Shown here piece by piece: positions 3,004 to 47,169 of a stretch of DNA of 50,136 nt (its first letter is position 1; every line of letters begins with the position of its first letter). A program made the position numbers and the translations under genes. A model generated the notes under the pieces. That model did no database searches and had not been told where the DNA came from. It was given only the letters and a program-made list of their open reading frames with translations. Location of the stretch: positions 1 to 50,136 of the IMG/VR virus record IMGVR_UViG_3300031507_000008; one strand, given 5' to 3'. Source of the stretch: a virus.

Positions 3004-4103
3004 TAGTACATACCAAAGCAATCACCCCATTGAAAGCCATCATATGGCCCAGAGGTATAGCTATTGCCAAATGCATTGCCTCGGATGCGGATGAAGTCAG
3101 GGGTCACGTCGTTGATCACAAGGCCTTCATTGCCATCAGCAACACGAGCTTCCATGATCTTTTCGTTGACGAGTTTGATTAGGGAATTGGCCTTGTCTCT
3201 GGAGTTCTCTTTAAGGGCCATCATCATGGCACTAGCAATGAGGTTGATCCAAGCGGTTTGGAATAAGGAGTCCATTACATTTGGATCAGTGACTTGGGCC
3301 ACGTAGCTAAGTGTGGCGAACTCCTGATTGGTAAGGATTACCCGTTGCGGAGCAACTGGACCAGTGGTGAGATTAAAGGTAGCACCTGTACCAGTGCCAT
3401 TAGTGGAGCCTTGGGCAACTGGGTTGGTTTGGACTTGAAAGTATGATCCACCAGCCGATCCAGCAGCGCCATTGATTACATTCTGAATACCAACGGAGGT
3501 GATTACGCCACCTCCGCCGACGGTGGATACGATAAGTTGAACTGGTGTGCCGATTGGTGCGGAACCCTGAGGAGTGGAGGCAAGGGTAATGATGTCTTGG
3601 AGATTGTATCCAGTTCCGCCATTGGCAACTGCGGCAGCGGTAATAGGTACGAAGTAATCGGTTTGCACAGCATAACGGATTGGTTGGCCCCACCAATATG
3701 ATGAGGCACCACCGGTTACGGCTGTGGTGATTGGGATTCCGCTGGTGAAGCCGGTTTGGGTTGAGGGGATGATGAATGCTGGGCGTAGGCAATCAATGGG
3801 GTATTGGTACTCGTAGGCCCATGGAGGTGGCGGTTGGCCCGGAGCCCAAAGGGTTGTGGCAGCTGAGGTGTTTTCAGGGGTTCCGGGAGAGGAGGTGATG
3901 TAGGTGAGGTTGGCTGTCCGCATCGCACAATTCCATGGTGCTTTGCGGAGCAGGTCGTCTCGAGCGTTGGCGAAGATAAGGTTGAACTGAATGGCTTCGT
4001 TGGAGAGTGGAGTCGATCCAGGTCCAACCTCACTTGCCGCAACGGTCGTGCGGGTGCCGAGGACTTGTAGCGATCGGTTGCAGATGTCTACAAGCGCGGT
4101 CAT
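3003..4103 (-). CDS. Tail tubular protein A-like (T7 gp11-type) adaptor
   Basis: A 366-aa protein beginning MTALVDICNRSLQVLG, with the family signature of an aromatic/acidic helix then ARDDLLRKAPWNCAMR. These proteins form the ring joining the portal to the tail nozzle. Residues about 150-250 form an inserted Gly-rich beta domain (NGGTGYNLQD followed by NPVAQGSTNG) that T7 gp11 (about 196 aa) lacks and that resembles an insertion in the adjacent tubular B protein. After the insertion the helical family fold resumes (FATLSYVAQVTDPNVMDSLF, then an alpha-helical end). The gene lies directly upstream of tubular B with TAATG coupling, as expected for a tail module. Confidence 0.85.
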   Translation of the reverse strand: MTALVDICNRSLQVLGTRTTVAASEVGPGSTPLSNEAIQFNLIFANARDDLLRKAPWNCAMRTANLTYITSSPGTPENTSAATTLWAPGQPPPPWAYEYQYPIDCLRPAFIIPSTQTGFTSGIPITTAVTGGASSYWWGQPIRYAVQTDYFVPITAAAVANGGTGYNLQDIITLASTPQGSAPIGTPVQLIVSTVGGGGVITSVGIQNVINGAAGSAGGSYFQVQTNPVAQGSTNGTGTGATFNLTTGPVAPQRVILTNQEFATLSYVAQVTDPNVMDSLFQTAWINLIASAMMMALKENSRDKANSLIKLVNEKIMEARVADGNEGLVINDVTPDFIRIRGNAFGNSYTSGPYDGFQWGDCFGMY

Positions 4104-25216: not shown

Positions 25217-25413
25217 CCCAATCGACCTTCGACTATTCCCACCACTTCAACAACCATGTGATTGATTGGTATTTGTGGAACGAGCTTCAACTTCGTACTG
25301 ATCGTTTACTATATGGCACATCATTCAGCATGGGGGGACGCAGAATCCCCCCATGGGAAGTGATTATCTATGACTCCGAAGACTGGACCCGATATGATGG
25401 AGAATTGTTGTGA
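25213..25413 (+). CDS. 66-aa hypothetical protein
   Basis: MTQSTFDYSHHFNNHVIDW... is rich in Tyr, Trp and Asp, with alternating helix and strand (RLLYGTSFSMGGRRIPPWEVIIY). It has ATGA overlap upstream and GTGA overlap downstream. No family recognised. Confidence 0.55.
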   Translation: MTQSTFDYSHHFNNHVIDWYLWNELQLRTDRLLYGTSFSMGGRRIPPWEVIIYDSEDWTRYDGELL

Positions 25414-25598
25414 AAGCCAGCATTGAATTAACCGAAGATGATATCCGCAGTGCAATATCAGGCCATATTAGTGGCGTATTGGGTATAACCATTGCATCAA
25501 AGGATGTAATAATCGAAGTTAAGTCTAAGCAAAACTACAAGAGCGAATGGGAGCAAGCATCTATCCGCGCTCATTTTCAGGCGAGGCCAGAAACATGA
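25410..25598 (+). CDS. 62-aa hypothetical protein
   Basis: It starts with GTG at 25410 overlapping the previous TGA (GTGA): KASIELTEDDIRSAISGHI... followed by strand KDVIIEVKS. It ends in ATGA with the zinc-finger gene. It looks like a small alpha/beta protein. Function unknown. Confidence 0.55.
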   Translation: MKASIELTEDDIRSAISGHISGVLGITIASKDVIIEVKSKQNYKSEWEQASIRAHFQARPET

Positions 25599-26143
25599 CC
25601 CTATACAACCTACGAAACCGTGGCGATCAATATCGCATCACTAAATTCACCAACGACCTCGATGTCGAATCCTCCTACCTCTTAACCGAAACCGAATGTG
25701 AATGTCCCGCAGGTCACCGTCCAACCTGTCGGCATCGCCAGATGCTTCCTGAGATGTTAGCCTATGACATGGCAAACACGAGAATGTTTTACGACTTCGA
25801 AACCAAGGTCGTCCTCGAACAGACCTTCGACAATGCGGATGAAGTAGAACCAGAGCCATTAGCCGAAGTCGAGGCTGAGGTTGTGGATATCCCAACCGAC
25901 GCTAATGGCAATATCGACTTCGACACAATCGCCACAACACAGCCTCATAGCACAACGGTCAGTGCATCGGACTTTGACTCCGAGGATGGTGGTTCGAATC
26001 CACCTGAGGTTGCCAAATCCATCAACACCCAAGCATTCCTCAATAACGAAATTCCAATGAACGATGAGATATTCAACGAACAGATATATGGCATAAAGCC
26101 AACACCTCACCCTTCCATCGGCCCAATCAAACGGAGGATCTAA
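25595..26143 (+). CDS. SWIM-type zinc-finger protein containing an embedded tRNA gene
   Basis: A 182-aa protein. Near the N-terminus ETECECPAGHRPTCRHRQ gives the CxC...CxH pattern of SWIM zinc fingers, which bind DNA or proteins. An acidic linker follows (about 80-115). Residues about 116-140 (QPHSTTVSASDFDSEDGG, SNPPEV) are the translation of a complete tRNA-Gln gene on the same strand. The C-terminus HPSIGPIKRRI overlaps the ribosome site of the next gene. The start overlaps the upstream TGA. The frame is open through the tRNA without a stop. A role in DNA transactions is inferred only from the finger. Confidence 0.65.
   Translation: MTLYNLRNRGDQYRITKFTNDLDVESSYLLTETECECPAGHRPTCRHRQMLPEMLAYDMANTRMFYDFETKVVLEQTFDNADEVEPEPLAEVEAEVVDIPTDANGNIDFDTIATTQPHSTTVSASDFDSEDGGSNPPEVAKSINTQAFLNNEIPMNDEIFNEQIYGIKPTPHPSIGPIKRRI
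25941..26015 (+). tRNA. tRNA-Gln (anticodon TTG) with encoded CCA
   Basis: A full cloverleaf is readable. Acceptor AGCCTCA (25941-25947) pairs with TGAGGTT (26005-26011), with one G-T pair. T8-A9 follow. The D stem is GCAC/GTGC with loop AACGGTCA containing GG. The anticodon stem is TCGGA/TCCGA with loop CTTTGAC (anticodon TTG at 25974-25976). The variable loop is GGAT. The T stem is GGTGG/CCACC with loop TTCGAAT. Discriminator G and CCA end it at 26012-26015. A and T at positions 15 and 48 also fit. The G discriminator agrees with tRNA-Gln identity. The gene lies in the sense direction inside the SWIM-finger reading frame. Confidence 0.92.
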
Positions 26144-26244
26144 TGTCACGGAACGATATATTTGGACTAATTATATCAGGTGAAATGGTCTTCATTGGTA
26201 TGTGTATGTATATAGCATCTGCAATACGCCAGTTAAAGAAATAA
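26143..26244 (+). CDS. 33-aa membrane peptide
   Basis: MSRNDIFGLIISGEMVFIG... has a single hydrophobic span (GEMVFIGMCMYIASAI) and a basic end. The ATG overlaps the upstream TAA (TAATG), with ACGGAGGA encoded inside the previous gene as ribosome site. Function unknown. Confidence 0.55.
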   Translation: MSRNDIFGLIISGEMVFIGMCMYIASAIRQLKK

Positions 26245-26262
26245 CCGCGGAGGATCTAACCC

Positions 26263-26517
26263 ATGTCCATCATCGACGATTTCGCAGACATCGCAAAGAG
26301 AATGAAAGGGGAGTTGGCGCCGAAGCCAAAGGTTGAGGAATTGGTTGAAGTTGTTAATATCCCTCAGGCCAATTGGCGTATGCTTAATAGTGACGCTGAC
26401 TCAATGCCTCCTATTCAAGCTCCAAAGCCAGTACTATGTCTGGTCTGTCGAGGATCGGGCCTAGATCCAACTGGCCATCAATGCTATTGTTGCAAAGGCC
26501 AAGGCCTAGCCCCATGA
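26263..26517 (+). CDS. DnaJ-type zinc-finger small protein
   Basis: An 84-aa protein. An acidic helical N-terminal half precedes CLVCRGSGLDPTGHQCYCC and KGQG, which repeats the CxxCxGxG pattern of DnaJ cysteine-rich domains (one zinc site). CGGAGGA precedes the ATG. The stop overlaps the next ATG. Possible chaperone-adaptor or zinc-ribbon role; not more certain. Confidence 0.65.
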   Translation: MSIIDDFADIAKRMKGELAPKPKVEELVEVVNIPQANWRMLNSDADSMPPIQAPKPVLCLVCRGSGLDPTGHQCYCCKGQGLAP

Positions 26518-34557: not shown

Positions 34558-34899
34558 ATGGTAAACAAACCAAATCAGGTAACCGAGATGCTGAAGAACT
34601 TAGGCCTTCCTACACAATATGAACTCCCAGTCGATATGCCTTATGCCCCAAAGCCAAACCTTCTCCAAGTCCGTGAAACCACTCACGGAGACTTTAGCGA
34701 GAACGCACGGCTTAGTCAAGCAATTAAGGAAATCCTTCGTTCATCTCCAGGCTGGAGCCATATCGTCGACGTTGAACGTGAAGCAATGGATATGATTGCG
34801 CTCAAGTTCAGCCGAATCCTCTCTGGCAAATCTCTAGAACGTCAGCATTGGGAGGATGTTGTGGGATATGCGAAGTTAGCCGAGCGGATGTGTCCGTGA
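34558..34899 (+). CDS. DUF6378-like phage protein
   Basis: A 113-aa protein whose second half, GDFSENARLSQAIKEIL ... HWEDVVGYAKLAERM, fits the small phage domain DUF6378, which is often found near nucleotide-metabolism and replication genes. TGGAG precedes the ATG at 34558; a longer frame would run through the hairpin. GTGA overlap couples it to the UDG-exonuclease gene. Biochemical role unknown. Confidence 0.6.
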   Translation: MVNKPNQVTEMLKNLGLPTQYELPVDMPYAPKPNLLQVRETTHGDFSENARLSQAIKEILRSSPGWSHIVDVEREAMDMIALKFSRILSGKSLERQHWEDVVGYAKLAERMCP

Positions 34900-35999
34900 C
34901 TCCCCTAGTCATCGTCGGCGAAGCTTGGGGATCTGAGGAAGCTCGCATTCAGCAACCCTTAGTCGGCCCTTCCGGCATCGAACTCCTCACCCAACTCGAC
35001 GAAGCGCAAATCCTTTCCTTAACGGGAGAGGATAAGTCGTATCTCAGACGTTATTGGGACACCCGCGACCCCAACTGTCTTGATGCAATATGGAGATTAC
35101 ACGCCGATGAAATCCACCGAACCAACGTCCTCAACTTCCACCCTCACGCCAATAAGCTCGAATATGTCTGCGGACCCAAAGCCGACGGAATCCACGGATA
35201 CCCAGCTCTTATCAAATCTGGATATCTCAGTAGAGTTCATGAGTGTGAGCTTGAGCGGCTTGGAGAGGAACTTCTGGCTCATAATCCTAACCTTATTCTT
35301 TGCCTCGGCAACACTCCTCTTTGGGCTCTGGCAGGTAAGACAGGAGTTAGTAAGCTTAGAGGGACAACTCTCTATTCGACTCATTGTGCCACCGGCTTCA
35401 AGCTCCTCCCCACTTATCACCCCGCCGCAGTCCTTAGACAGTGGGAGCTTCGACCAACGGTTATAATGGACCTAATGAAAGCCAAAAGGGAATCAGCATA
35501 TGCCGAAATCATCCGTCCGAACTGTGAGATCTGGATCGAACCAACGCTGGAAGACATTACCAAATTCTGTGTGGATCACGTTGAACAATGTGAGCTCCTC
35601 AGCGTGGATATTGAGACCAGCGGAAACAGAATTACGTGCATTGGCTTCGCTCCCAGAGCCGACCTTGCGCTCGTTGTACCTTTCGATGACGCCCGTTCAT
35701 CGAAAGGTTGTTATTGGTCTACTCCACAGCATGAACAACAGTGCTGGGAAATTATACGTCGAATTCTTGAGAATGGCTCAATCCCCAAGCTCTTCCAAAA
35801 CGGCGTCTACGACATTGGCTTCCTCATGCGAAGCTACGGAATTCTTGTCAAAGGCGTTAAGGAAGACACGATGCTCGCCCACCACGCGAGGCAGCCGGAA
35901 AGCTTGAAGGGCTTGGGTTATCTGGGCTCCATTTATACGGATCATGGATCATGGAAGCATATGCGGAAGAAACACGAAACAGTGAAGCGGGACGAGTGA
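34896..35999 (+). CDS. UDG-like domain fused to 3'-5' exonuclease (N-terminal part of a split DNA polymerase I)
   Basis: A 367-aa protein, GTG start overlapping the upstream TGA. Residues 1-210 resemble family 4/5 uracil-DNA glycosylases: VIVGEAWGSEEA ... PLVGPSG, TNVLNFHPHANK, LILCLGNTPLWAL and LLPTYHPAAVLR. Residues about 230-350 are a DnaQ-like proofreading domain with ExoI (LLSVDIETSG) and ExoII (FQNGVYDIGFL). The third exonuclease motif is absent here and instead begins the polymerase protein encoded 160 bases downstream. UDG-like domains fused to phage family A polymerases are known (SPO1 type). Here that polymerase is divided into two polypeptides. Confidence 0.8.
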   Translation: MTPLVIVGEAWGSEEARIQQPLVGPSGIELLTQLDEAQILSLTGEDKSYLRRYWDTRDPNCLDAIWRLHADEIHRTNVLNFHPHANKLEYVCGPKADGIHGYPALIKSGYLSRVHECELERLGEELLAHNPNLILCLGNTPLWALAGKTGVSKLRGTTLYSTHCATGFKLLPTYHPAAVLRQWELRPTVIMDLMKAKRESAYAEIIRPNCEIWIEPTLEDITKFCVDHVEQCELLSVDIETSGNRITCIGFAPRADLALVVPFDDARSSKGCYWSTPQHEQQCWEIIRRILENGSIPKLFQNGVYDIGFLMRSYGILVKGVKEDTMLAHHARQPESLKGLGYLGSIYTDHGSWKHMRKKHETVKRDE

Positions 36000-36175
36000 A
36001 GCTTTGTACACATTGTAAATGGTTTAAGTTTGCATTCTTAACGCCTGCAAGATATGGCCGATGTAATGCGCCGCAGAATATGAAATTGAATTTAGTAGAT
36101 GGAAGTATGCGTCGTGAGATAGAGTTCGCAGTCAATGTCCGCCAATATAAGTGTCGTGGCGCATGGTACGAATAA
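35996..36175 (+). CDS. Zinc-ribbon-like small protein inside the polymerase locus
   Basis: A 59-aa protein starting with GTG in GTGA overlap. Pattern LCTHCKWFKF ... YGRCNAP ... YKCRGAW gives four cysteines in a zinc-ribbon arrangement, the same layout as the protein at 32813-33019. It separates the two polymerase pieces and overlaps the second by 13 bases. It may have been inserted, or it may help assemble the two pieces. Function unknown. Confidence 0.6.
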   Translation: MKLCTHCKWFKFAFLTPARYGRCNAPQNMKLNLVDGSMRREIEFAVNVRQYKCRGAWYE

Positions 36176-37683
36176 TCTCCACCCAAACCTCCAACCCAAA
36201 CGACTTCACTCCGTTCGAGCAGGATCAAATCTACAACGGACTGGACTGTTGCATCACCAGCGAGGTCTGGAACGCAATCAAATTCGGCCACAACGAACAA
36301 ACCATGGAGGAGGCACAGACGTATGCATTCTCCAAGGCTCTTCAAGGCCCTGTCCTCGAAATGAATGCCCGAGGCATCCTCGTAGACCAAGCCCGGCGAA
36401 ATGAGGTCCTTGAGGAATACCACGACGCATTGGATCAACTCGAACGCCAGTTAACGCTCATTGTCCTCGAAGGTGTGGGGATGAAGTGGTTTAACTGGAG
36501 GTCGAATGATGATCTTAAAGCTCTATTCTACACCCACCTTCAAATCCCGGAGATCAAACGCTATGGCAGGCCTACAGTCGATCGTGATGCTTTGGAGAAG
36601 ATGGAGCAGTACACCGTTACCAAACAAATCATCGCCCACCTCAATGCAATGCGAGAATTGGGTAAAGATATCGGGGTACTTAAAACAGACATCGATACCG
36701 ACGGACGGATGCGAACCTCTTACAATATTGCTGGGACCAATACAGGACGATTTAGCAGTTCGTATTCAGAATATGGCACCGGAGGCAATGTACAGAATAT
36801 CAAGGAGTCCCTCCGGTCCGTATTTATTGCTGATCCCGGCTTCAAATTCGCCAAATTCGACGCAAAGTCCGGCGAGTCCTACGTCGTCGGCGCAATAGAA
36901 TGGAACCTGTTCAATGATCCGGCATATCTTGAGGCTGTCGATTCCGGTGATGTCCATACAGCAGTTGCACGAATTTGTTGGCCAGAACTTAAATGGACTG
37001 GAGTATTGGACCAAGATAAGGATATTGCGGAGACACCCTACTATCGCCATTATACATATAGATTTATGTGCAAGAAGCTTGGCCATGGCTCAAACTATGA
37101 AGGACAACCTACTACTCTGGCTCAACAGTCAAAACTCCCAGTTAATGTCGTCAGGCAATTTCAACCCAAGTACTTCACCGCATTTCCAGCTCATCTCCAG
37201 TGGCACGCGTGGGTCAAGGCGCAGGTATGGGCTAAAGGCTATATCGTCAACCTCGTCGGGCGGAAGCGATGGTTCTTAGGTCGGCGGAACGATGCGGATG
37301 TGATTCGTGAGGCGATTGCTTATGATCCGCAAGGGTCTCTTGCCGACATCGTCAACCGAGGAATGCTCAATACATGGCGCCAGCGGCCAGCTATACTCAT
37401 GGCCCAAGACCACGACGCAACAACATGGATGTACCCGGAGGAGATGGAAGATGAAGTTGTTCCGAAGCTACAACGTATGCTCGCGGTGGAGGTGCCGCTC
37501 AACAACGGTCGCCTATTGGCAATCCCATATGATTGCCAATTAGGTTGGAACCGAGGGAAATATGATGCACGGAAGAATCCCAACGGACTCGTCAACTACA
37601 AAGGGCATGATAATCGCCAAAGACAAACGGAAGCTGGAATCTTGGATAGACAGTTTCGTCGAGCAGACAGGAAATCTAGATAG
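36163..37683 (+). CDS. Family A DNA polymerase, polymerase part
   Basis: A 506-aa protein starting at ATG 36163. It opens with the third exonuclease motif (IYNGLDCCITSEVW, about residue 20), then thumb helices and TGRFSSSYSEYGTGG / NVQNIKESLR. Motif A is KFDAKSGESYV (catalytic Asp, Glu at +5). Motif B is RFMCKKLGHGSNYEG, with His where E. coli Pol I has Phe762. Then follow GRKRWFL ... DPQGSLADIVNRGML and motif C AQDHDATTW. Catalytic aspartates are present, so it should replicate phage DNA, needing the upstream protein for full proofreading. The end overlaps the next gene by 77 bases. Confidence 0.88.
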   Translation: MVRIISTQTSNPNDFTPFEQDQIYNGLDCCITSEVWNAIKFGHNEQTMEEAQTYAFSKALQGPVLEMNARGILVDQARRNEVLEEYHDALDQLERQLTLIVLEGVGMKWFNWRSNDDLKALFYTHLQIPEIKRYGRPTVDRDALEKMEQYTVTKQIIAHLNAMRELGKDIGVLKTDIDTDGRMRTSYNIAGTNTGRFSSSYSEYGTGGNVQNIKESLRSVFIADPGFKFAKFDAKSGESYVVGAIEWNLFNDPAYLEAVDSGDVHTAVARICWPELKWTGVLDQDKDIAETPYYRHYTYRFMCKKLGHGSNYEGQPTTLAQQSKLPVNVVRQFQPKYFTAFPAHLQWHAWVKAQVWAKGYIVNLVGRKRWFLGRRNDADVIREAIAYDPQGSLADIVNRGMLNTWRQRPAILMAQDHDATTWMYPEEMEDEVVPKLQRMLAVEVPLNNGRLLAIPYDCQLGWNRGKYDARKNPNGLVNYKGHDNRQRQTEAGILDRQFRRADRKSR

Positions 37684-40775: not shown

Positions 40776-41254
40776 GTCTGCGGTCCTTTCGCCAACTTCA
40801 ATGCCTCATCAACTCGGCCAAGAAACATCAATCTCTCAGCCTGTCGTCTGCGTGTTAACCCAGCCAATACCTTACCTCCTGCATGATTGTAGAGTTGTAG
40901 AGTAGACATAGCATGTTGTACATGGCCGGATTTGATATCATCGTCAATGGAACTTGAGAGCAAATCCCCGGTGTTGAAGTCAAATGAGACCAGGGCATCG
41001 AACTCACATTGCTGCAAGGTAACAGGTGCCATAATCTTCATTACCCTTGCCTCAAACTTAGCCAGATCATTACTCAATGCCTGATCAGCTTCCTCCTTTG
41101 TAATCTGCATCCCGGGTGCAATATACGGAGGGATATTGCCAATGTTGGTATGGCCATAGCCAATGGTTAATACGTGAACTGAGTCGTAGTAGGAATGAAG
41201 AAATAGTCCTTCAAAGTCCTCAATCAGTTGTCTTCCAGCTGCACTTGTCTGCAT
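40772..41254 (-). CDS. GH24 (T4-type) endolysin
   Basis: A 160-aa lysozyme. LIEDFEGLFLHSYYDSVHV followed by LTIGYGHT gives the catalytic Glu, Asp and Thr of glycoside hydrolase 24. Further family features are CEFDALVSFDFNTG and LTRRRQAERLMF. It cleaves the glycan strands of peptidoglycan. There is no signal peptide, so it depends on the holin. The start overlaps the stop of the 1971-aa gene (TAATG). Confidence 0.92.
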   Translation of the reverse strand: MQTSAAGRQLIEDFEGLFLHSYYDSVHVLTIGYGHTNIGNIPPYIAPGMQITKEEADQALSNDLAKFEARVMKIMAPVTLQQCEFDALVSFDFNTGDLLSSSIDDDIKSGHVQHAMSTLQLYNHAGGKVLAGLTRRRQAERLMFLGRVDEALKLAKGPQT

Positions 41255-44200
41255 TACTTTTCCTCTCTTGGTTTAGTCGTGCCTTTAAGTGTCCCCCGTG
41301 CAATGTCCCCAAATGTCTTGGGGTGAGCTTGTTGATTAACGAGATCGATGCCAAAGCGAATAGCGTTGTCGACTGTCTTTGGCGCCATACCGGTGCCGTG
41401 ACCTAAGGCAGTGAGAGTGTCCCCCACCGTCTTGCCCATTCGGGCTTTGGTGAATGCGTCCTTGCGGCCAAGGTCCTTTGCGGCTTTGACAATATCATGG
41501 AGGGGGCTGGAGATCAGCCCCACACCCACATCCTGACCGCTAAGAATACCATGCACAATATCACGAGCATAGAGAACTGATGAAGAAAGCCCAAGAAGGG
41601 ATGCGGTTGCGGCATGCTCTAGCCATCCTCGTTTGTCATCGGTGGTAAGGCCAGTGACCCATTCTTCGACGAGGGTGGGCCAGATGACGTAGGCGAAGAT
41701 ATCCGCTGCAATTCCAGGCATATTCTTAGCCATGCCATTTATATCACCTTGTTTAAACAATCCCCAGGTATCGTGAACGTCTTGACATAGCTCTATCCGT
41801 CTCTGCATAACAGTACCAAAAAAACCATACACAGAAGTAAGCCAGTTGTGGAGAGCACCTCCACCTCGGACCAGAGTAGGTTGATTAGTGACCGCAGTCG
41901 AGCCGTGAGCCAGGCGCACCGCTGCGTCAGCTTCGTCGATGGATGGGCCATGGTCTAGTCCTCGTTCTTGAGCATCGCGATAGGCTGCGAGCCATGTGGG
42001 TTTGGCAGAGAACATGTCGGATTTGGCCACTAGCCATGAGCCAGCTTGAATTATATTCTCCCTTACACCTTTAGCACCCTCGATCTCCGAATGGGCACCA
42101 AAGATAGTATCCTGCCAATGGCGCTCACGACGCTGGAGTTCCTCACTCCACTTCATGGCGAACTCGTGATTGGCCTCGGTTAGGGATGGTGATCGACCGT
42201 AGAGATCTTGGACTGCTCGGAGAAAGTTAGTGGTGCCGACTTGGCGCGAGGACATAACTAGGGCAGTTGGTCCGTGCTTGAACGCAGTGAAGGGGTTAAA
42301 GCCAATGTAGGTTGAGATCACGTTCTGTCGAAGGAACTCACTGATCTGCCTACCCTTGGCTGCGGCTTTGGATGGGATAGATTCCTGTCCAGCAATAGCC
42401 TTAAGCCATGGCAGGAGGAAGTTCCGTCCATTGTACTCCGCACCATAATGACCTGTGATCGAGTTGGATAGGCCTGGGTCTTTGAATAGCTTTTGGGTTT
42501 CAAGGACGAAGCTCCTGAATGAGATATCATGAATCATCTGCCCGATGCGGACAGGGGTCATATCTGGATTTAGATCGAGAGGGTATGCTGCTCCAGATCG
42601 TTTCTTCGTATATCCATTGGAAGTACTGATATGGCCGAAATCTCCGTCATCATAAGCCCCATCTCGGATAGGAGACTTACCTTCAATATCGGGATGTTTA
42701 ATAAGTGGATGGTACCATCCTTCAAAGTTACCATGTATGTTGGATATTGGTTCGAGGGGGATTTTGTCGATGGTGATGCCATGGATGTGTTCATACTCCT
42801 GATCGGCTAGCTTAACTAGGTCGCCAAAGACATCCTTGCCAAGCTTCTGGGCACGGACCCAATCGCCTTGGCGAGTGTTGACCTCAAGCCATTTCATTAA
42901 GGCAGCAGGGTCAGCGCCATAGCCCTTGGCGAGGACGTTCCAATTGCCCTTGTTACCTGCGTTCTGTAACATGGTTGCTACATTGCCCCGGGTAAAGCGA
43001 ATGAATGGCTGCCCAGTGGTTGGGTCGTTGAATGGCGCTATGACGAGTTTGTCCTTATCCTCAATCTCGCCAATGGCTTGATACTTCCGTGCAAACTCAC
43101 GCTGGAGGGCGGATTTACGATTGGCTGCTGCGGCTGCGGGATAGGTTACGTACTTGTTAAACACCGATTGCGGATCACGGTTCCCCATACGGTTGAGGAA
43201 GGTTTCCATGTTCGTGACGGACGCAAGGAATGTCTTTGGCAAGTCCTTCAGCTTATCCCATCGGGTCTTGGTAGCGTTGATTGGATTAAGTGGAAACTGC
43301 TCAACGTGATCCCTCATCTCATCAATCACCGCCTTCCGATCCGCACTCTCTCCCGCCTTAATAATCTTCTGCTCATCCTTCGCGTTCTTAATCAGCGCGT
43401 CAACCGTCTGCTTCGCACCCATGAAGTCATGAGTGGTAAGACTATCCACGGTCGACAATTTACCATCAACAATAACATCAGCAATAGGAATATCCCTATA
43501 CCCATAGCTCTCTGCCAGTTTGGCATCGGCAAATTCCTCCAAGGTCGCTTGTCGACGATCAAGGTTTTCTTGGATATTCTCCAATGATCGGCCAACTTTG
43601 TACCCCATTTGTTGGAGGAGGTTTTGGATATGGTTTAGGTATTCGGGTTCGATACCTTTGACGTCAGCTTTGCGGAATGGCTTTGCAGCTTTGTCGAGCT
43701 TGGCTTTGGCCTTTTCTACGTCTCGGGCAAATTGGGCATAGATAGTGTTGAAGTACTGCGCCTGCTTAGAGGTAAAGGCATCAGCGGGCTTGTTGTTAAG
43801 CAAGGCTAGCTCGGCATTCTTCCCGTGCTTCCCCGCTTCCCGCAACCACTTGTCACTATCTATTGCCCGCATAGGAAGAGCGTCGAACTTCTCCTTAGCC
43901 GCAGAGACAAGTTGGTCCTTGGTGATTGATCCAAATGTTGAGCCTGCCATTCCTGCAAGGGCGTGAGTCTCTTCGTGGAGTAGGTCGAGTTGGTTTTGGC
44001 TAAGGATCTGATCTTTAGCCTCCTCGAGAATGTTCTTTTCAAGGAATCCATGTTCGACTTCCATCCTTCGGGCGATTTCTACGTCGATTAGATGGCGTTG
44101 GAATCGCTCTTTGCCGAGGCCTGTGGCTTTGCGGGTTTCATTGAGGCGGATTAGCCCAGCGACCATTTGATCTCCAGTCGGATAACCAAAGAGATGGGCG

Positions 44201-47169
44201 ATGTCGTCGGGTTTGACACCAGTTCGGCCGGTGATGTAATCATTAGGCAAGGCGGCGAGTTGCTCTTTGGTCAGGGATTCACGGTCGAGCTTATAGGTAT
44301 TGTCGAGCTTCTTCCCATTAAACTCAGCACTAGCCAAGAACTTGTCGGCGGCAACGTCTGGTCGGGCGTTGATGTCACGGAGCACGTCCGGGCGCATGGC
44401 TTCGGACTTAGCCTTCCAATCCGCGGTTTGGCGCTTGGTTTGATCCGCAAGGACTCGACGTGAGGATGCAGCCAGATCGGCCTGTTGCCTCGCTTCGATC
44501 AACTTCATATACCGCTGATACTGCGGCACGGTCATGGCTATGTCTTTAGCCGCACGGAATGGTGGGGAGGCTTCGGTGCCAGAGCCGGGTTCGAGAGGAG
44601 CGGATAGTTTAATATCAACAGGACCTCGTTTGGCCCCACTAATACGTTCGCCTGTAATATTCTTAGCATTGGGGAATTGCTGTTTAATCTGCTCTACGAT
44701 ATCTCTAATCTGAGCAGTAGATAAATCTTGCCCGTATTTGCGAGATGAAGCCCAGCCAACGTTTACAGTCTCTGCATCTTTAGCACCATGTAATTGTAAC
44801 GCCCCAACCTCTTTTCCATTAACATCACGAATACGATATGAATTATAAGTTTCATCACTACGACGTGGATCAAGAGTAAGCTTATCTTCAGGTCGTACAG
44901 CCATTTGAGCAGGCTCAGATCCAATCTCCGGCCCAAGCTGCTCACCACGTCCACGGACTTCGCCAGATTCGATCTTGCCGAACAGGTCTTGATAGGTTGG
45001 TTCAGCCCCAAGCACCCGACGGAGATGGCCTTTGATGGCCTCAATTAGTTGATCAAGCTTTTCAAATATCCGATCCACAGCAGTGAACGTCGCTGGATCT
45101 CGTTGGCCCTTCTCCGTTCGCCAAGTACGGAATGCTTCAGCTACGGATTCTTCGAGCTTGCCTCGGGAATCTAATGTCTTATAGCGTTTGTCGATATCGA
45201 ACCGCTGATTCCAACCTTCAGCTTCGGACGCAGCTTTAAGCACTCCACGTTCTTCATCCGTGAACCTATCCCACAATCCATGCACGGCTTCATGACTGAA
45301 GATCGCCGCAGGATCATCCGCACCGAGGGAGATCATGATTAGGTTGCGGCCATCGCGGAACTTCTGATGCAAGCCTGATGCACGACCACCGGGGTATTGA
45401 ATGGAGTCGACGAAATTGACTTTAGTCGAGCGTGAGAGGATTCGATCCGCGTCGTTAAGAATGTCATTGATGGTCTGATTTTCAACTCTTGTACGATTCT
45501 CACCAAACTTGGCAAAGACGTTGTAGCCGGGATATGGTTCGACCCAGGTTCCGGTGGTGAGGTCGCGGAATTGTTTGTCAGTGGCAGATGGATCGGTATC
45601 AAACTCACTAAGCTTAATCTTAGCCAATGGCGAAGACATCTCCACTCCAGCGGCTTCCCTTGCACCAGAGATGCGATGACCGGTTAAGGTTTCGGCATTG
45701 GGGAATTCGGCTTTGAGTTGGCGAATCAATGATCGCATTAAAGCTGGCCCGAAGTTATTGGGGTTGTAGTATTCCCCAAGGCCGTTAATCATTTCGACGT
45801 AGAGATCTTTGCCGCCTTTCTGTTCACTGAGATTGATAGTGCCAACTGATTGGCCGTTCTCATTAATCATGTCGAAGTCATGGAAGCCTTGCTCGGGACC
45901 AAAGGTTCCACCCTCAGACGCAAGCCGCTTAAGCTCAAGCTTCCTATCCCCGATTGAAAACATCGGCTCCATGCCATTTGCGGCACGGACTACTGGAATG
46001 GTCTCGTCAACGGTCGGGATAGGTGGCGGTGCGGCCTTTAGATCCTCAGCTTCCTTCGCCGTAATCCCTTCCGGCACAACCCGTAGATCATCATGCAGCG
46101 CCTTGTGTACCTCAGGGTCAACCTTGGCAATCCAGTCCGCCATTGGGACTGTAATATCCGCCCCTGTCTCCTTAGCCACCTCAAGCTGTTCAGCGAGATT
46201 GGGCACCCAGCCTAGAATCCCGTCGTCAGCGCTAGGAAGCTTATCGCCATAAAGGCGCAACGCCGCTTCGCCACTAATCCCCATGGTTGCGCCATTGGTG
46301 TGTTGATCCACGAAGTCACGAAGAAGCTCAGGCGCACGTTCACGGCCAGGGACAGCTTGGGCGTCTTTGATCTTTTCATCAAGGAGGTCGAGGGCAGATT
46401 GATTGAGTTCGGTTTTGAGCTTGTCGATCTCTGGGTGGATACCAGCAGGTGGAACCTTATCTGAGGCAAGCCAAGGACGGGCTTTGGCAAGGACCTGCAT
46501 TGGCCCTTCGGCTCCGCCACCAAGGCCTTTGACGCCGATATCCCCTCGCATCATAGAGTATTCGGCCATGCCAGCTACGTCATCGGCCAGCTTCTTGCCA
46601 CCGACGGATTCGAGCATGTAATGTGAGGCGTGGATTGCGCCACCGATTGACCGGGATAGGCCTTCGAAACCAACTTCACCTAGACCTACGATTTGGCCCA
46701 AGGCTCCGTATGCGGACGTTGCGGCGTGACTACCTCCGGTCATGTCGAAGGTTTTGGCAAACTCTTCGTCGGAGCCAAAACCAGTGTAGAACTTCCTTGT
46801 GTTGATTGGCTGATCGCCAAAGCCTTCACGGAATGATTTGCCAAGGCCGGTGAGGCCATCGGAGAGCTTATCGAGTTCGCCATAGGAGTCGTTGAATATC
46901 TGGCTATTGAGCGGATGCCGTTGAACGAAGTCGGCGATGTATTGATTTCGCCCTACGATCACATTCGATGCGGCGACCTTGGTGTTTCGTTCAAAGGATT
47001 CTAGATCACCAGAGATGATCGATGCTGGGATTCCAGTCACCTTCTCAAGCTGATAGGCCCGTGCGGAGTCATCAGGGTTAACATCAGCATTCGCCGCAAC
47101 GCGTGATGATGCGCCAGCGCCATAGATGTTGCGGATCGTGCCGGTGTAGTCGAGATCGTCATCGGCCAT
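41254..47169 (-). CDS. Very large internal virion/ejection protein with two HEXXH motifs
   Basis: A 1971-aa protein, the largest in the genome. Its position after the transglycosylase protein equals that of T7 gp16-type ejection proteins. Residues about 480 and 850 carry two similar domains (ITGERISGAK / LTGHRISGAR, each preceded by an FPNA segment), as in other polyvalent phage proteins. HEAVHGLW (about residue 625) and HEETHALAG (about 1063) are zincin-like HEXXH sequences in different contexts. Long helical regions fill the rest and the C-terminal third has hydrophobic stretches (IFAYVIWPTLVEEW). It is probably ejected with DNA and may act on the envelope or on host proteins. Confidence 0.75.
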   Translation of the reverse strand: MADDDLDYTGTIRNIYGAGASSRVAANADVNPDDSARAYQLEKVTGIPASIISGDLESFERNTKVAASNVIVGRNQYIADFVQRHPLNSQIFNDSYGELDKLSDGLTGLGKSFREGFGDQPINTRKFYTGFGSDEEFAKTFDMTGGSHAATSAYGALGQIVGLGEVGFEGLSRSIGGAIHASHYMLESVGGKKLADDVAGMAEYSMMRGDIGVKGLGGGAEGPMQVLAKARPWLASDKVPPAGIHPEIDKLKTELNQSALDLLDEKIKDAQAVPGRERAPELLRDFVDQHTNGATMGISGEAALRLYGDKLPSADDGILGWVPNLAEQLEVAKETGADITVPMADWIAKVDPEVHKALHDDLRVVPEGITAKEAEDLKAAPPPIPTVDETIPVVRAANGMEPMFSIGDRKLELKRLASEGGTFGPEQGFHDFDMINENGQSVGTINLSEQKGGKDLYVEMINGLGEYYNPNNFGPALMRSLIRQLKAEFPNAETLTGHRISGAREAAGVEMSSPLAKIKLSEFDTDPSATDKQFRDLTTGTWVEPYPGYNVFAKFGENRTRVENQTINDILNDADRILSRSTKVNFVDSIQYPGGRASGLHQKFRDGRNLIMISLGADDPAAIFSHEAVHGLWDRFTDEERGVLKAASEAEGWNQRFDIDKRYKTLDSRGKLEESVAEAFRTWRTEKGQRDPATFTAVDRIFEKLDQLIEAIKGHLRRVLGAEPTYQDLFGKIESGEVRGRGEQLGPEIGSEPAQMAVRPEDKLTLDPRRSDETYNSYRIRDVNGKEVGALQLHGAKDAETVNVGWASSRKYGQDLSTAQIRDIVEQIKQQFPNAKNITGERISGAKRGPVDIKLSAPLEPGSGTEASPPFRAAKDIAMTVPQYQRYMKLIEARQQADLAASSRRVLADQTKRQTADWKAKSEAMRPDVLRDINARPDVAADKFLASAEFNGKKLDNTYKLDRESLTKEQLAALPNDYITGRTGVKPDDIAHLFGYPTGDQMVAGLIRLNETRKATGLGKERFQRHLIDVEIARRMEVEHGFLEKNILEEAKDQILSQNQLDLLHEETHALAGMAGSTFGSITKDQLVSAAKEKFDALPMRAIDSDKWLREAGKHGKNAELALLNNKPADAFTSKQAQYFNTIYAQFARDVEKAKAKLDKAAKPFRKADVKGIEPEYLNHIQNLLQQMGYKVGRSLENIQENLDRRQATLEEFADAKLAESYGYRDIPIADVIVDGKLSTVDSLTTHDFMGAKQTVDALIKNAKDEQKIIKAGESADRKAVIDEMRDHVEQFPLNPINATKTRWDKLKDLPKTFLASVTNMETFLNRMGNRDPQSVFNKYVTYPAAAAANRKSALQREFARKYQAIGEIEDKDKLVIAPFNDPTTGQPFIRFTRGNVATMLQNAGNKGNWNVLAKGYGADPAALMKWLEVNTRQGDWVRAQKLGKDVFGDLVKLADQEYEHIHGITIDKIPLEPISNIHGNFEGWYHPLIKHPDIEGKSPIRDGAYDDGDFGHISTSNGYTKKRSGAAYPLDLNPDMTPVRIGQMIHDISFRSFVLETQKLFKDPGLSNSITGHYGAEYNGRNFLLPWLKAIAGQESIPSKAAAKGRQISEFLRQNVISTYIGFNPFTAFKHGPTALVMSSRQVGTTNFLRAVQDLYGRSPSLTEANHEFAMKWSEELQRRERHWQDTIFGAHSEIEGAKGVRENIIQAGSWLVAKSDMFSAKPTWLAAYRDAQERGLDHGPSIDEADAAVRLAHGSTAVTNQPTLVRGGGALHNWLTSVYGFFGTVMQRRIELCQDVHDTWGLFKQGDINGMAKNMPGIAADIFAYVIWPTLVEEWVTGLTTDDKRGWLEHAATASLLGLSSSVLYARDIVHGILSGQDVGVGLISSPLHDIVKAAKDLGRKDAFTKARMGKTVGDTLTALGHGTGMAPKTVDNAIRFGIDLVNQQAHPKTFGDIARGTLKGTTKPREEK

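Follow-up and report, generated by a model that had tools for sequence, protein, structure and literature searches.

How can a phage use one stretch of DNA both as codons of a protein and as a complete tRNA gene? The question is raised by a window of 50,136 nucleotides (the whole stretch of DNA analysed here, IMG/VR record IMGVR_UViG_3300031507_000008), in which a tRNA gene lies within the gene for a SWIM-like protein (Table 1). From the sequence comparisons described below, we consider it quite likely that the locus is dual-coding: the frame would be translated throughout, the disordered tail of the protein would be a tRNA slot that has been filled repeatedly, and each transcript would give either protein or tRNA. 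We infer the RNA processing, the charging of the tRNA and the competition between both products as parts of this explanation.

Genes in the window match terminase, head-tail adaptor, tail, endolysin, helicase, exonuclease and family A polymerase genes. Because these structural and replication gene matches come without a tyrosine integrase, the window fits a lytic tailed phage, probably one with a short tail. Among phage isolates, the best-ranked terminase match had 44.8% identity, and none of the 153 matching records reached 60%; a megablast search with 24 kb of the window returned no isolate match, and the SWIM-like protein of the window matched none of 50,697 phage-isolate records. The family A DNA polymerase is apparently split over two ORFs (34848-35999 and 36151-37683), with the uracil-DNA-glycosylase domain and the 3'-5' exonuclease in one and the polymerase domain in the other. 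The minus strand carries a 1971-aa ORF (41254-47169) with a sub-threshold match to LPD22, a large polyvalent protein.

The tRNA and its host gene

ARAGORN called a single tRNA in the whole window, a tRNA-Gln(ttg), and the Rfam model RF00005 matched positions 25941-26012 with 68.5 bits, far above the gathering score of 29; no other Rfam match in the window reached the gathering thresholds. The tRNA has a UUG anticodon in a 7-nt loop, the discriminator G73 and an encoded CCA. Both G73 and a weak 1-72 pair are in keeping with recognition by GlnRS. The host frame reads the tRNA in sense as approximately 26 residues (116-141), and two of the three reading frames are open across it. The original prediction of a complete tRNA-Gln(TTG) in sense and in frame within an open protein-coding gene was therefore correct.

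Table 1. Features of the locus, with positions in the window
Feature	Position	Strand	Basis
Upstream ORF, 62 aa; stop overlaps the ATG of the host gene	25410..25598	+	sequence
Host gene, 182 codons; N-terminal SWIM-like domain and long low-confidence tail	25595..26143	+	homologues, AlphaFold
tRNA-Gln(UUG) with encoded CCA, nested in the SWIM-like gene	25941..26015	+	ARAGORN, Rfam RF00005, paired stems
Part of the host gene 3' of the tRNA; last codons contain GGAGG	26016..26143	+	sequence, C-terminus common to relatives
Short downstream ORF, 33 aa (putative gene); ATG overlaps the stop of the host gene (TAATG)	26143..26244	+	by eye

The host gene had also been described as coupled to its neighbours by start and stop overlaps, and this holds at both ends: at its start an ATGA joins it to the stop of the preceding ORF, at its end stands TAATG, and its frame stays open across the tRNA. 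The Shine-Dalgarno-like GGAGG of the next gene, at 26133-26137, lies within the last codons of the host gene. An alternative ATG 16 codons upstream is possible; the homologues favour the start at 25595.

The protein begins with a SWIM-like domain of approximately residues 1-75, in which CxCx7CxH occupies residues 35-47. CxCxnCxH is the defining motif of the SWIM zinc finger (PF04434). C35, C37 and C45 are invariant, and H47 is invariant in one family alignment (A2) and nearly so in another (A3). The Pfam SWIM model (PF04434) matched only 1 of 18 family members, with an E-value of 0.74 that missed the cut-off. The window protein had no PHROG match at E 0.001 and no Pfam match at E 0.1, and none of 796 PDB matches to the domain fold reached E 0.001. 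Because the motif is present but the Pfam score is under the cut-off and a PDB fold match is absent, the protein is named SWIM-like only; the SWIM finger that had been predicted rests on the motif. In the AlphaFold model, block means are 89-95 for residues 1-70 and 48-70 past residue 80, which predicts an ordered domain of approximately 75 residues and, behind it, a tail of low confidence in which the tRNA-encoded residues lie.

The slot among relatives

A protein search and two family-alignment searches identified homologues of the host gene on 52 further virus contigs (18, 13 and 21), and three more homologue scans of virus contigs added none. In four pairs (L009/L010, L203/L204, L221/L222 and L218/L219), both contigs probably come from one virus that was sampled twice. 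We scanned the 53 whole records (1.69 Mb), window included, with a tRNA search that was positive in 14 of 14 control genomes. It found 13 tRNAs, 12 of them inside the SWIM-like gene. Because this gene makes up approximately 1.4% of the sequence (assuming 450 nt per gene in records that may be fragments), the placement is not due to chance. The thirteenth, the tRNA-Pro(TGG) of L224 (726-804), is intergenic between two ORFs upstream of a tRNA-less SWIM-like gene, and the gene slot is therefore not obligatory. No nested tRNA above the cut-off was found in 41 of the 53 records.

Nine of the nested tRNAs are Gln(UUG) (the window, L004, L005, L025, L026, L028, L040, L221 and L222); the others are a Thr(UGU) in L212, a Leu(CAA) in L189 and a tRNA with the anticodon CAU in L033, which ARAGORN calls Met and which could also be Ile2. 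Since L221 and L222 agree in both protein and tRNA, the distinct loci number 11. The tRNA of L189 (3346-3424), called Leu(CAA), has 79 nt only and a short variable region. All 12 lie on the sense strand with an encoded CCA and an open frame, which in five cases, including the Thr of L212, is the only open one. The probability that all frames are open by chance is 0.00024 if the 12 related rows are treated as independent, and approximately 0.003 for nine lineages or isotypes, counted by hand from the same table. In all tRNA-bearing genes except that of L040 (11 of 12), the stop and the next ATG overlap.

The covariance scores (RF00005) of the 12 nested tRNAs range from 53 to 71 bits. In an alignment of 10 distinct rows (A5, from which L189 is absent), 96.2% of cells were paired, 16 of 21 pairs had changed on both sides, and none of 500 shuffles reached the observed pairing; these rows mix several isotypes, so the result in part shows just that each row is a tRNA. 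L025 and L026 are nearly identical in the acceptor arm, the T arm and the 3' flank and differ in the D and anticodon stems, where pairing is largely kept. The L026 tRNA (1698-1772) looks mosaic, its acceptor and T arms being like those of L025 and its D and anticodon arms nearer to L040.

The tRNA-bearing rows are scattered over the tree, with at least eight changes between presence and absence, and a single clade of these rows was rejected (p-AU 0.0003). The tree covers 49 of the 53 rows; of the missing ones, L010 and L204 are alike to L009 and L203, while L218 and L219 match each other in part only. Because the tree rests on 77 columns, gains and losses are not firmly separable; to account for the four tRNA identities, a minimum of three replacements or independent gains is required. 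Close relatives have the SWIM-like gene with an empty site, in line with the earlier suggestion that the tRNA invaded an older linker, and the tRNA-encoded peptide is absent from the aligned tRNA-less homologues except L006. The similar stretch in L006 is a decayed tRNA in an open frame, with a recognisable 5' half, no T arm and a score of 15.2 bits. Its E-value is 0.0002 within the gene and rises to 0.13 when all 39 loci of the scan are counted together, namely L189 and those records that have no nested tRNA (38 of 41, all except L010, L204 and L219). Neither of the two outcomes named earlier as speaking against the nested tRNA, a covariance score under the tRNA threshold and homologous proteins with the same peptide but no tRNA pairing, was thus observed.

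A swap is seen between L004 and L212, whose flanks are closely similar right after the CCA, yet one tRNA is Gln and the other Thr, and the two are read in different phases. The tRNA of the window is 88% identical to that of L004, a distant relative, while its nearest relatives have no tRNA, which suggests that it came by transfer between phages; constraint on tRNAs could alternatively explain the likeness. The sequence comparison thus reveals a repeated change of state at the locus, including swap and decay.

The core pattern of the window tRNA had no exact match in genome_contigs. At E-values of 1 or less, the protein of L033 matched 34 phage records (33 Campylobacter and 1 Escherichia), and the best 20 of these 34 matches were all to Campylobacter phages and ran through the tRNA-encoded residues 90-116, where the phage annotation gives tRNA-Met in 15, tRNA-Tyr in 1 and nothing in 4. 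That the peptide of this CAT tRNA (3272-3346) matches Campylobacter phage tRNA genes by tblastn is a warning of false protein matches. The protein of L208 had one phage-isolate match (E 0.9).

Coding constraint around the tRNA

In the N-terminal domain, the proteins of the tRNA-less L001-L003 reach 91% identity with the window protein. They share the C-terminal PHPSIG(P/T)IKRRI with it and miss the tRNA-encoded residues, and the C-terminus of the window, PHPSIGPIKRRI, is found in frame also in the tRNA-less L001, L002 and L220. All 10 comparisons of the part downstream of the tRNA gave a dN lower than dS; they have sequences in common, are not independent and include short and gappy ones.

Fisher tests were performed for four of these ten. 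For L033 and the tRNA-less L011, in both of which the frame runs over 158 nt of this part, stop included, dS was 1.70 and dN 0.16 (p = 2e-8). The 13 codons after the tRNA in L025 and L026 differ by five synonymous and no non-synonymous changes (p = 0.0004), whereas inside the tRNA dS was 0.19 and dN 0.31 (p = 0.88). The window differed from L220 in the same sense (p = 2e-5), and the comparison with its closest relative L001 was borderline (p = 0.057), with uncertain gap placement. Constraint was thus found on both sides of the tRNA in L025/L026, and downstream of it in L033/L011 and window/L220.

Because dN is below dS downstream and three of the four Fisher tests are clear, we take these substitutions to show that the protein is under constraint before as well as after the tRNA; the stretch between is unconstrained in the one pair tested. 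Part of the conservation of the 3' end belongs to the Shine-Dalgarno sequence of the next gene. As the last codons contain its GGAGG, the RR(I/L/F) ending of the proteins would be at least partly a Shine-Dalgarno effect.

Proposed processing, alternatives and precedents

We propose that the disordered tail behind the SWIM-like domain is an insertion-tolerant site within a densely packed operon, where phages would have placed a tRNA repeatedly. Because the gene presumably must read on to the stop that overlaps the next ATG, only sense tRNAs in stop-free frames would be accepted. A consensus scan of 25300-26400 found one sigma-70-like site, 5' of the gene (shuffles had a mean of 2.5), and no terminator-like site. 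Because no such promoter lies inside the gene, the tRNA presumably derives from the operon mRNA. RNase P would cut its 5' end and host nucleases its 3' end, the CCA being already encoded. Each transcript would then serve for one product, the full protein or the tRNA, as excision would destroy that copy of the message and leave a 5' fragment that encodes the SWIM-like domain as a non-stop message and a 3' fragment that retains the Shine-Dalgarno sequence of the next gene. Because the upstream fragment loses the stop codon, competition should fall on the SWIM-like protein. It should be weaker for the downstream genes because the GGAGG lies 3' of the tRNA and stays with them, and the stop/start coupling would be all that these genes lose on cutting.

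The folding result is ambiguous. The acceptor stem was favoured in 11, 8 and 1 of the 12 nested tRNAs with 0, 50 and 100 flanking bases, respectively, compared with 87, 49 and 31% of 78 ordinary tRNA-Gln genes. Demand for CAA codons was rejected as a reason for the tRNA: CAA made up 42-70% of Gln codons in six tRNA-Gln records (partial sequences), 51-77% in six tRNA-less sets and 52-56% in two with another tRNA. A comparison of phage CAA usage had been suggested earlier; because relatives lacking the tRNA use CAA just as often, a link between CAA demand and the tRNA is unsupported.

The dual-coding explanation may be taken further, to a tail that is an in-frame cassette slot, accepting, swapping and losing tRNAs by phage recombination while the mRNA alternates between protein and tRNA; the exchange would suit the host tRNA pool or tRNA-cutting defences and leave the operon unchanged. 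We put this forward tentatively, as a possible extension.

Rather unlikely is a tRNA that acts mainly as a regulatory switch, with folding and cleavage setting how much SWIM-like protein is made and the supply of tRNA being secondary, a role that Mukai 2021 proposed for selB/selC. The architecture resembles that of selB and selC (see below), including the stop/start overlap and the remnants, but 41 records have the gene without a tRNA above the cut-off, and the tRNA of L006 has decayed. The isotype also varies (Gln, Thr, Leu, CAU), which differs from SelB with its tRNA-Sec; the protein therefore has no fixed tie to one tRNA. We similarly regard as improbable a neutral passenger in a tolerant tail, transcribed and of little use. 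Its patchy presence, the decay in L006 and the absent link to codon usage would agree with this, whereas the stems are maintained with double changes, the CCA is encoded in 12 of 12 cases, and the site has been occupied repeatedly and its tRNA swapped.

Many temperate phages have tRNA pieces at attP, and the nested tRNA might be such a site for integration into a host tRNA gene. We consider this very improbable: a tyrosine recombinase (PF00589) was found in none of 19 records searched, window included, the tRNAs are whole with CCA and vary in isotype among relatives, and no homologue of the SWIM-like protein was confirmed in genome_contigs. An annotation artefact or chance, by which a tRNA beside the gene would have an open frame by accident, is hardly credible: although two of three frames are open in the window anyway, there are 11 distinct loci, the in-frame coding constraint goes on past the tRNA, and none of the 12 nested tRNAs contains a stop in the frame used. 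For control, at least 120 viral-contig stretches matched a tRNA-Gln-like pattern, and 80 were examined, with 83 matches; 10 matches were too close to the stretch end, and 5 of the 73 tested lay in a sense ORF of at least 100 aa, by eye in tRNA clusters or non-coding DNA.

Phage tRNA genes are usually intergenic or clustered. The nested tRNAs resemble these ordinary genes in lying on a phage genome with an encoded CCA; the tRNA-Pro of L224, unlike them, is of the ordinary intergenic type. Gene finders as a rule forbid a tRNA and a protein from sharing one stretch, and loci of this kind are therefore easily missed. No nested tRNA in a phage protein gene was among the matches listed in a search of open-licence literature.

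The closest precedent is selC, the gene for tRNA-Sec, nested in selB of Alphaproteobacteria (Mukai 2021, PMC8124441). That paper presents itself as the first report of a tRNA gene nested in a bacterial protein ORF and proposes an either/or expression of tRNA and protein. As described there, selB/selC shares with the phage locus an entire sense tRNA in the 3' end of a protein frame, the overlap of the stop with the next start, in-frame remnants and the proposed either/or expression. It differs in being one tRNA with its own elongation factor in bacterial genomes, whereas the phage locus has four tRNA identities with repeated change and replacement, a protein that is not known to be linked in function to its tRNA, and a constrained frame of up to 158 nt past the tRNA. 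The tRNA-Lys inside cox1 of Armadillidium vulgare mitochondria (Doublet et al. 2015, cited via PMC8124441) is likewise, in the account given there, wholly within the coding region and in the same direction, but belongs to the compact organelle genome of an animal mitochondrion.

The phage locus extends the known type of nested tRNA. Evolution has tried the overlap several times here, and its empty, filled, swapped and decayed states can be compared. This puts two questions within reach of a test, namely how a cell chooses whether an mRNA is translated or has a tRNA excised from it, and why some phages have a single tRNA. The idea of the nested tRNA is thereby widened from the special selB/selC pair to ordinary elongator tRNAs.
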